Below are positions 17,650-21,096 of a stretch of 44,826 bases of DNA, in pieces; position 1 is the first letter of the stretch; the number at the start of each line of letters is the position of its first letter. The stretch comes from Chitinophaga pinensis (GTDB lineage Bacteria; Bacteroidota; Bacteroidia; NS11-12g; UBA955): contig CAMDAF010000019.1 of assembly GCA_945888525.1 (NCBI GenBank), forward strand, positions 1 through 44,826, read 5' to 3'. Below the pieces are notes generated by a model, which was not told where the DNA came from, searched no databases, and worked only from the letters and a program-made list of their open reading frames with translations. The position numbers and the translations under genes were made by a program.

Positions 17650-18744
17650 TTGAAAAAAATCCTTATTGTGGTGGGCACTAGACCCAATTTTATTAAAGTA
17701 ACACGCTTTAAAAAAGTAATAGCTAATCATCCTGAGTTAGATGTTAAATTTGTACATACTGGTCAGCATTTTGACGAAAAAATGAGTCAAGTGTTTTTTG
17801 ATCAATTTGACCTAAGGCCTGATTTTATGCTCAATATTGGACAAGGCTCGCCAAATAGCCAGATGGCTAATGTTATGCTGGGAGTCGAGAAAGTTTGTCT
17901 AGAATACATGCCGGACTTATTAATTGTGGTAGGCGATGTAAACAGTACATTTGCGGCTGCTTTAACGGGCAATAAAATGGGCATTAAAGTAGCGCATTTA
18001 GAAAGCGGATTAAGAAGTTTTGACCGCGAAATGCCTGAGGAAATTAACCGCTTATTGACGGATGAGATTTCTGATTATTATTTTGTAACGGAACAAAGCG
18101 GTTTAGACCACTTGAAAGCAGAAGGCAAAGACCATGGGAATGTGTTTTTTGTTGGCAATACCATGATTGATAGTTTGGTGGAATTTGATGAAGAGGTAAA
18201 TAAAAGTCAAGTTATGCAAACAATGGGATTGGCCAAAGGTCATTTTGTGTTAATGACTATGCATAGACCTTCAAATGTGGATACTAAAGCAGGATTAGAA
18301 GTTTTAATTGAAATGATTAAGAACATCTGCAAAAATACAAAACTGGTTTTCCCTATACATCCAAGAACGGTTAATCGATTAAAGCAATTTGAATTATGGG
18401 AATCTATAGCGAATCTTGAGGGTCTTATATTTTCTGAACCTATGGATTATTTTGCGTTTCAAAATTTGACTGCCAATTGCAAATTTGTTGTCACCGATAG
18501 TGGAGGCATTCAAGAAGAAACCACCTACCGTCAAGTCCCTTGCTTGACCTTGAGAAATAACACTGAACGTCCTAGTACCGTTGATCTTGGCAGCAATGTC
18601 TTGGTTGAATATACCATGGAGGCACTCCAAAAAAGAATAGATGAAATTAATGCAGGCACTTATAAAAAAGGACAAATTCCTCCACTTTGGGATGGTAAAA
18701 GTACAGATAGAATTGTCGAGGCAATAAAGGGAATCTTAGTTTAG
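17650..18744 (+). CDS. wecB: UDP-N-acetylglucosamine 2-epimerase (non-hydrolysing)
   Basis: Makes UDP-ManNAc for surface polysaccharides. The TTG at 17650 gives 364 residues starting MKKILIVVGTRPNFIKV, the family N-terminus; an ATG at 17566 would add 28 unrelated residues and would overlap the adk promoter. Conserved blocks seen: HTGQHFDEKMS, VVGDVNST, HLESGLRSFDREMPEE, TMHRPSNVD, and DSGGIQEE. It stands alone, between divergent adk and the convergent glycosyltransferase-like gene, which it overlaps by 4 bases at the stop codons. Confidence 0.94.
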   Translation: MKKILIVVGTRPNFIKVTRFKKVIANHPELDVKFVHTGQHFDEKMSQVFFDQFDLRPDFMLNIGQGSPNSQMANVMLGVEKVCLEYMPDLLIVVGDVNSTFAAALTGNKMGIKVAHLESGLRSFDREMPEEINRLLTDEISDYYFVTEQSGLDHLKAEGKDHGNVFFVGNTMIDSLVEFDEEVNKSQVMQTMGLAKGHFVLMTMHRPSNVDTKAGLEVLIEMIKNICKNTKLVFPIHPRTVNRLKQFELWESIANLEGLIFSEPMDYFAFQNLTANCKFVVTDSGGIQEETTYRQVPCLTLRNNTERPSTVDLGSNVLVEYTMEALQKRIDEINAGTYKKGQIPPLWDGKSTDRIVEAIKGILV

Positions 18745-20129
18745 TGGCCGGTTTTATTTTGTTTATAGCTGCTGTATATAATTTGACCCAGCAGCACAAA
18801 TAGACACAATTGAACTTGTGCAAAACCAATTTGATACCATTCGAAATCTAAAGCAATTCCTATTGATCTAAGTGAAAAGTATTTTGACGTGTTGTTGAAT
18901 GAAACAAATAGGATGTAATAGGATGCTAAAAAGACATAGATCCATGAAAATAAATATTTACGGTAAGCAAATACTGCCGTTAACGGTATAAGGAAATATT
19001 GTTCGCTAATTGCAAGCGAAGTAGCAACTATACATAGGAGATAGATATTGAACATATCTGTGTTTTTCCATTTGTAGGCATAAAATGCTAAGGTGGGGAA
19101 AATTAACAACCAAATGAATTTATAGCCAGTAAAGATTGGAATCAATTTGAAGAAACCCATTTTTGTGATAAATCCTGGGATTGCTAAATCAAGTATGTGT
19201 TTAAGGAAAGTTTGGTTGTTGTTGAATTGATAAGACAATACATTTGTTTTTATGGCATCAAAATCATGGTAAAAGGGCAGGAAACTTAAGATAAAAATGA
19301 GGGCTGGTATTGTCAAAAGTTTAATACGCTCCTTTAGTAAAATCTCTTGATTAAAAAGCAACATTAATGGGAAGAATACCATTATGTGTTTAATGCTAAA
19401 GGATATGCCTAGTAAAATGGCTGCTACAGTGTATTTTTTGTCCTTTAAATTTATATATGCATAATACGCCAAACAGACCGCCAATATATCAAACTGTGAA
19501 TGGTGGCCAACAATAACGATGCTAATTGGATTAAAAAGCAACAACAGGATTAATAAATTATTCTTTGTTTGCTTAAAAATTGCTTTGTATAAGAAGACCT
19601 CAGCGGCGAATAGGCAAATAACAATATAAACATGAAATAATTTCTGATTGTAGGCACCAATGCTAGCGAGTAATTTTAATGCAGCCAAAATATAAGCCCA
19701 TATCGGCCCGTAATTGTACCTTGTGGTGTTTGCATAAACGCTTTTGCCCTCAAGTATAATGTCTGCTACAATTTCGTATGATTCTAAATCAAAATTGTGG
19801 CCTAAGATTGCCATAAGGATTCTAAGTAAAAGGCCAAAACTAAAAATTAATACCCAATATTTATTTGGGATAAAAATATCTGAAATTCTTGAAGACTTAA
19901 AATATAAACTCAACAAAAACCATAGGCTCAAAAGAATGTTTGTGTCAAATATTGCAAACCGCAACCGTCCAGTAATCATTCCGTCTGCGTCGCCAATGAA
20001 GTGTTCGAATAACTTTGCAAATCCATTAAAAAGAACAATTGAAATAAAAGCGTATATATAAGACAGTCGATGGTTTAACGACGTGTTCAAAAGTGATTTA
20101 ATTTCAAACAAAATTTGTTTATTTGTCAT
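18741..20129 (-). CDS. Polytopic membrane protein, GT-C glycosyltransferase-like
   Basis: 462 residues with about ten to twelve hydrophobic helices. The first large loop carries GDADGMITGR, and later come YNYGPIWAYI, NPISIVIVGHHSQFD and SFSIKHIMVFFP. This layout resembles polyprenyl-phosphate-sugar-dependent GT-C mannosyltransferases (GT87/PIG-M-like). The substrate is unknown; a role in glycolipid or polysaccharide synthesis, perhaps beside wecB, is inference. Its start overlaps the end of the archaemetzincin remnant by 11 bases (shared ATGACAAATAA), so the two were once coupled. Confidence 0.7.
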   Translation of the reverse strand: MTNKQILFEIKSLLNTSLNHRLSYIYAFISIVLFNGFAKLFEHFIGDADGMITGRLRFAIFDTNILLSLWFLLSLYFKSSRISDIFIPNKYWVLIFSFGLLLRILMAILGHNFDLESYEIVADIILEGKSVYANTTRYNYGPIWAYILAALKLLASIGAYNQKLFHVYIVICLFAAEVFLYKAIFKQTKNNLLILLLLFNPISIVIVGHHSQFDILAVCLAYYAYINLKDKKYTVAAILLGISFSIKHIMVFFPLMLLFNQEILLKERIKLLTIPALIFILSFLPFYHDFDAIKTNVLSYQFNNNQTFLKHILDLAIPGFITKMGFFKLIPIFTGYKFIWLLIFPTLAFYAYKWKNTDMFNIYLLCIVATSLAISEQYFLIPLTAVFAYRKYLFSWIYVFLASYYILFVSFNNTSKYFSLRSIGIALDFEWYQIGFAQVQLCLFVLLGQIIYSSYKQNKTGH

Positions 20130-20402
20130 TGATAAATTGCTTGCAATTTAAGCATAAATTTCTATTTGCACCTTCAATATTGCTCATTTTCCCTTTTGCA
20201 TCTAGCATCAGACAAAAAGTGTCTTGGCAATGCTTTAGACTAAGGTTGTGCCCCAATTCGTGTAAAATTTCTCAATATCAATGGTTAATTGAGGGAGAGT
20301 AGAAGGGTCAAAACCATCAAAACAAACCATTTGAATATTCGATGGTGTTGAACGGCTTTCGCTTGTTTGGCAAGAATTTACCATCAGCAGATACCAAACA
20401 TT
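20119..20402 (-). pseudogene. Archaemetzincin-like lipoprotein, internally deleted remnant
   Basis: Two out-of-frame pieces fill the interval between the TetR and GT-like genes. The upstream piece (20384-20235) reads MVNSCQTSES..., a lipobox-like Cys followed by a segment ending DIEKFY, which resembles the N-terminus of Bacteroidota archaemetzincins. The downstream piece (20271-20119) reads EILHELGHNLSLKHC, then C-L-M, then CLNC. The spacing fits the family pattern HExxHxxGxxHC-x4-CxM-x17-CxxC exactly, with Ser for Gly. About 100 residues expected between the pieces are missing. A possible further frameshift lies near 20385-20402. Family knowledge: zinc-dependent metalloprotease. No intact protein can be made. 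Confidence 0.75.
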
Positions 20403-20454: not shown

Positions 20455-21096
20455 TTAAATGTGGTATGCTTTGAGCATCAATTTTACTATGGATTCTTTC
20501 TTGATGTTGTATTGCTCAAGAAATTGAGATTGGTTTGTGATATTTCTAACCAAAAGGGCTGACAAACCAATTGCATTGACTAAATCTAAAATTAATTCTG
20601 CAAAATTGTCGTGTTCAGCTTGGGATTTGTTTTTGTTCGTTTTTGACAAAATGCCTTTAAGGAAGTTGATTTCAAGCTTTTTATAAGGCCCGTAAATTTC
20701 TTCAAAAGTATTGTTTAGATCCAAAATATTTTCGTTTGACAAACTGGTTAATTTAACCAAATTGGTATAAACTTGGGTTCTATTCCAAAGATACTTTAAT
20801 ATTTTTGTTTCATCATCCGGCATATCTACAATATCAGATTGCAACTTATCCAATCCTTTTGTTAGCTGATTGTTAACTACTTGAACGAAAAGCTCCTCTT
20901 TGTTTTTGAAGTAATAATAAAGGGCTGCTTTGTTAAATCCAATAGAATCTCCAATTTCATCTAAGGTCGTTTTGTTGAATCCAAATTTTATAAAACACTC
21001 AGTTGATTTTTCTAATATTTCTTTTCTTCTGGAGTCATTTGTTGATGGCCTTCCAGGTTTCCTTTTGATGATTTTGCTTTGTGTTATAGTCTCCAT
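20455..21096 (-). CDS. TetR/AcrR family transcriptional regulator
   Basis: 213 residues from the ATG at 21096. An N-terminal basic tract (KIIKRKPGRPS) precedes a TetR helix-turn-helix (about 24-70) with TTLDEIGDSIGFNKAALYYYF and then the NKEELF that follows it in this family. The C-terminal half is an all-helical ligand domain I cannot assign. A TTG at 21114 would add six residues, but it lies within a TTTG promoter-like box (AAAATTTG, 21119-21112), so the ATG is preferred. It is divergent from mreB with 136 bases between; whether it controls the GT-like gene behind it is unknown. Confidence 0.88.
   Translation of the reverse strand: METITQSKIIKRKPGRPSTNDSRRKEILEKSTECFIKFGFNKTTLDEIGDSIGFNKAALYYYFKNKEELFVQVVNNQLTKGLDKLQSDIVDMPDDETKILKYLWNRTQVYTNLVKLTSLSNENILDLNNTFEEIYGPYKKLEINFLKGILSKTNKNKSQAEHDNFAELILDLVNAIGLSALLVRNITNQSQFLEQYNIKKESIVKLMLKAYHI

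Follow-up and report, generated by a model that had tools for sequence, protein, structure and literature searches.

Between a gene of TetR type (a name that we take from its sequence) and a membrane gene, the minus strand of the window, that is, the whole stretch of 44,826 nucleotides analysed here, carries two pieces of one gene in different frames, and the question that they raise is which gene this was, what broke it and whether the loss is recent. The initial annotation placed an archaemetzincin remnant at 20119-20402 and reported an N-terminal frame ending in DIEKFY and a catalytic frame lying in another frame at the 10-mer GAAATTTTAC. Both frames are seen in the sequence as described; the interval itself is real but too short at its N-terminal end, where the piece runs upstream to 20435. 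In this study, the interval is assigned, with a probability of about 0.93, to the pseudogene of a lipoprotein-like archaemetzincin (M54) that was functional until late and whose middle was lost and frame shifted by a 298-bp deletion (Table 1).

Table 1. Features of the archaemetzincin remnant and of its two neighbours; positions are those of the window.
Feature	Position	Strand	Basis
N-terminal remnant, from ATT 20435-20433 to the Tyr of DIEKFY, 58 codons	20262..20435	-	Gap-free alignment to the N-termini of G009 and G010, both with ATG at that column
Deletion junction (GAAATTTTAC); 298 bp absent relative to G009 and G010	20262..20271	-	Comparison with open genes
Catalytic remnant EILHELGHNLSLKHC...CLNC...NDK and stop, in a frame unlike that of the N-terminal remnant	20119..20271	-	PF07998, NF033823
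Premature TAA of the N-terminal frame, due to the frameshift	20235..20237	-	Frame reading
Former archaemetzincin stop and start codon (ATG) of the next gene downstream, overlapping by 11 nt	20119..20129	-	Overlap of the same length in G009 and G010
Downstream open membrane gene, GT87-like	18741..20129	-	Below Pfam cut-off; 82% identity to G010, 81% to G009
Upstream TetR-type regulator gene, syntenic anchor	20455..21096	-	Synteny comparison

The catalytic frame runs on the minus strand after a TGA at 20274-20272 to a TAA at 20121-20119, reads EILHELGHNLSLKHC-x4-CLM-x17-CLNC...NDK* and translates as EILHELGHNLSLKHCQDTFCLMLDAKGKMSNIEGANRNLCLNCKQFINDK. The N-terminal frame, also on the minus strand, runs after a stop at 20480-20478 to the TAA at 20237-20235 and holds ...LLMVNSCQTSESRSTPSNIQMVCFDGFDPSTLPQLTIDIEKFY, that is, ...DIEKFY; its former lipoprotein-like signal region ends in LLMVNSC, which we take to be a lipobox. 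The only other copy of the 10-mer in the window lies at 7482-7473 of the minus strand.

The 50-residue catalytic piece passes the Pfam family PF07998 with 25.6 bits against a cut-off of 24.4 bits. It also matches NCBIfam NF033823 (E = 4e-10), at 39.9 bits and thus below the curated cut-off of 145 bits, under which the open protein of G010 likewise falls (105.3 bits). A match of both pieces to PF07998 had been proposed as a check, and only the catalytic piece gave one; the N-terminal piece had no Pfam match at E values up to 1. Aligned without gaps to the syntenic open genes, the N-terminal piece is identical to G009 at 23 of 58 residues and to G010 at 20 of 58, and for neither genome did any of 20,000 shuffles score as high. 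The proteins of G009 and G010 start with a lipoprotein-like signal, presumably with a lipobox, and the open orthologue of G010 matches the archaemetzincin structure 2x7m at E = 9.3e-14, while 3lmc is matched at only 0.026. The M54 identity of the interval is confirmed by the score of the catalytic piece together with the intact syntenic M54 genes of relatives, and a chance match to the motif is ruled out by this family match and the synteny.

The archaemetzincin consensus given in PMC3427221 is HEXXHXXGXXHCX4CXMX17CXXC, and the glycine of HEXXHXXGXXH is described there as strictly conserved. The catalytic pattern, which had been described as kept, is indeed kept in its spacings and in its His, Glu, Cys and Met residues, but the motif reads HExxHxxSxxHC and not HExxHxxGxxHC, the glycine having become serine. 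The remnant therefore has the spacing of the zinc and Cys4 signature in common with the archaemetzincins of M54 (MEROPS/Pfam PF07998; structures 2x7m, 3zvs, 4axq and 3lmc), whereas 99 codons, this glycine and the start codon are missing from it. For comparison, 34 chosen loci, less L031 and L127, in which there was no frame with the full motif, gave 32 archaemetzincin rows, including the paralogue from the window's own genome. The motif glycine is Gly in 31 of these rows and Asn in the remaining one, G008 (L024), where an assembly error is possible; the same is possible for a stop inside the match of G001 (L127) and for stops inside that of G022 (L020). The standard motif spacing is likewise kept in 31 of the 32 rows, the exception being the own-genome paralogue, L001.

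Loss of a catalytic residue, as in the remnant, is also a feature of CarG and of the non-proteolytic archaemetzincin-like proteins of NCBIfam NF033824; CarG of Myxococcus is described in PMC3427221 as a bacterial archaemetzincin with a regulatory function and with another residue in place of the catalytic Glu. Both the remnant and the G010 protein match NF033824 under its cut-off. However, the regulatory role of CarG is established there, whereas the frame of the remnant is broken; CarG is a precedent for the loss of activity and not for a broken frame.

The locus was compared across a genus set of 17 members (16 and the window's own genome), among which G009 and G010 are the closest relatives by the tetR and GT genes. 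Eighty tetR loci were returned, and 15 of them were read gene by gene. An intact gene at the syntenic locus of relatives, which had been put forward as a check on a loss by deletion, was found: in five of the nine loci with a tetR gene at least 56% identical (L042-L050), namely L042-L045 and L048, an open archaemetzincin lies directly behind tetR, the genomes being G010, G009, G015, G012 and G005. A relative of the window's GT87-like gene follows the archaemetzincin in G010, G009, G015 and G012 (82, 81, 50 and 39% identical, respectively), and not in G005; the genes beyond it in these four loci are, we assume, wecB and adk. The GT87 label is a weak one, since the window's 462-residue protein scores 21.8 bits against a Pfam cut-off of 25 bits, that of G010 scores 17 bits and that of G012 falls in no family. 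The other four loci (L046, L047, L049 and L050) have no archaemetzincin frame behind tetR, and where the genome has one it is on another contig; they carry a different gene of 539-553 codons at this place, and the two that were scanned (L046 and L049) encode PMT_2 proteins. The archaemetzincin motif was also absent from the six further tetR loci that were read (L051-L056). The slot between tetR and wecB is thus variable in the genus, holding an archaemetzincin with a GT87-like gene, an archaemetzincin alone or a different large gene.

Relative to both G009 and G010, 298 bp (99 codons and one base) are absent from the window between the DIEKFY helix and HELGH, the gap opening inside the Tyr codon of [KQ]KFY and closing at the first His codon in HELGH, in agreement with the loss of about 100 codons that had been postulated. 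The G010 gene has 204 codons, of which this is about half; the corresponding distance in G015, G012 and G005 is 301, 301 and 307 bp. The offset between the frames of the two pieces is that predicted by a 298-bp loss, and no further indel was found in the 174 and 141 retained bases (58 and 47 codons) compared with G009 and G010. The start codon is also lost, with ATT where G009 and G010 have ATG, and the N-terminal frame contains no ATG, GTG or TTG upstream of 20384. With the frameshift, the 99 absent codons and no ATG, there is no continuous frame with a start codon and an N-terminal domain, and no active protease product is expected from the remnant. The three lesions, namely the deletion, the loss of the start codon and the loss of the glycine, may have arisen in any order.

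The genome has a second archaemetzincin at G000:C6:21410-21928 (L001 1264-1932), open over 222 codons. In the archaemetzincin tree, from which the window remnant was left out, it pairs with G009:C73 with a support of 100/100; its zinc motif reads HEIGHNHGLTKVPGHHC, compared with HEIGHNHGLPHC in this partner, and so contains a five-residue insertion. An intact gene elsewhere had been named in the initial annotation as a possible objection; the search turned up this diverged paralogue, and the contigs searched yielded no copy with the standard motif.

Two other accounts of the broken frame were weighed against the pseudogene. It is very improbable that the 298 bp were dropped in the assembly of a metagenome-derived contig and that the cell carries an intact gene. 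Such an artefact would be in keeping with the 63 contigs of the window's own genome and with the nature of the nearest relatives, which are metagenome-assembled; however, a dropped segment would leave both the start codon and the metzincin glycine unchanged, and both are changed. Furthermore, the lost middle part, sought elsewhere in the assembly, matched only the diverged paralogue on C6, by which its presence on another contig is ruled out, and the usual assembly k-mers far exceed any repeat of up to 10 bp, which also counts against an artefact. Slighter still is the chance that the catalytic fragment survives under selection as a separate small Cys4 zinc protein, 45 codons long with TTG 20256 as its start or 29 codons long with ATG 20208. 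In favour of this reading, there is no clear sign of relaxation in the catalytic piece along the window branch, in-frame start codons exist and the stop of the fragment still overlaps the GT start; on the other hand, a recent loss accounts for the same pattern, and a product from either codon would be without a whole HEXXH and without the conserved glycine. It is just as improbable that the fragment is kept as an independently translated zinc-binding miniprotein (29-45 residues) that would, by way of the 11-nt overlap, set how the GT87-like gene is translated. Coupling to this gene had been thought to be retained. The stop/start overlap does persist, but with the N-terminal frame closing at 20237-20235, some 105 nt short of the GT start (20129), coupling is not kept; only if the fragment starts independently at one of the two codons above would the overlap be more than a relic.

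For the pseudogene, the cause of the deletion can be judged from the intact alleles, which can reveal the length of a repeat, as the frame overlap of the product cannot. In G009, AGTTTTA (7 bp) stands exactly at both deletion ends, whereas G010, G015, G012 and G005 share 1, 0, 0 and 1 bp at the aligned ends, so that a repeat at both ends is found in one of the five relatives. In the G009 gene, 0.19% of the breakpoint pairs 250-349 bp apart share at least 7 bp and 1.1% share at least 5 bp. A downstream copy of the 10-mer would encode Glu-Ile-Leu ahead of the His; in all 32 rows the Glu position is occupied by V (26), I (3) or L (3), and at the Ile position I occurs in none of the 32. The 10-bp repeat that had been proposed is consequently retained only as a short one: the full length is unlikely because the sole repeat, in G009, is of 7 bp and because Glu and Ile would be needed where the rows have neither, while some 5-8 bp centred on TTTTA would be a plausible length. 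We would liken the case to bacterial pseudogenes in which the stretch between two short direct repeats has been deleted; here, too, the frame is shifted and the junction shows possible homology over a few bases.

On this evidence, the following course is the best supported. The place between tetR and the GT87-like gene was occupied by an archaemetzincin that seems to have remained functional until late in the lineage; what was probably a single 298-bp deletion then took out the central part of the protein and shifted its frame. The probable mechanism is slippage or illegitimate recombination between short repeats, some 5-8 bp long and with a TTTTA core. That a short repeat was the cause is somewhat favoured. 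A deletion unconnected with any repeat, with a blunt or chance junction, is the less probable course for the same pseudogene, though a serious one: in four of the five syntenic genes the aligned ends have only 0-1 bp in common, whereas the exact 7 bp at both ends in G009, and the fit of the window's upstream side AAATTTTA and of the LHE codons TTA CAC to a shared TTTTA, speak for a repeat.

The timing of the loss was approached through substitution counts in the window, G009 and G010 only, G005 having been left out (its helix motif differs). For the catalytic piece, dN is 0.071 on the window branch compared with a mean of 0.052 on the other branches, an excess of 0.018 with a bootstrap range of -0.042 to 0.083. 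The N-terminal piece has a dN of 0.493 on the window branch compared with 0.117 on the others, about four times faster, and this rate, taken alone, would suggest an older loss. Of the controls, GT gave 0.058 and 0.053 (ratio 1.10) and tetR gave 0.043 and 0.015 (ratio 2.78, range 1.44-5.69), by which the window branch itself may be longer. Fast N-terminal divergence was rejected as proof of an old loss, since other archaemetzincin pairs show the same contrast between the N-terminal and catalytic parts. Of 465 pairs compared, the 20 with a catalytic-part identity of 0.65-0.85 (overlapping pairs, not independent, with G009-G010 among them) have N-part identities of 0.22-0.69. The N-part identities of the window, 15/36 (0.42) to G009 and 14/36 to G010, lie inside this range, and a Fisher test of amino-acid changes in the N-terminal compared with the catalytic part was not significant (p = 0.23). 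Because the identity of the window's N-terminal part lies in the range of other pairs, both pieces look like a gene in use until recently, although timing is coarse because synonymous sites are near saturation (dS of 0.88 or more where defined). With no clear excess of amino-acid change in the catalytic piece, the loss, when set against the split from G009 and G010, looks recent, as had been supposed.

The case is one of ordinary gene loss, well resolved, with its before-state in five relatives. Little is known of archaemetzincin function. With one copy broken and the other carrying an altered zinc motif, this lineage may do without an archaemetzincin, and comparison across the tetR-archaemetzincin-GT-wecB slot is a natural way to approach the role of the enzyme.
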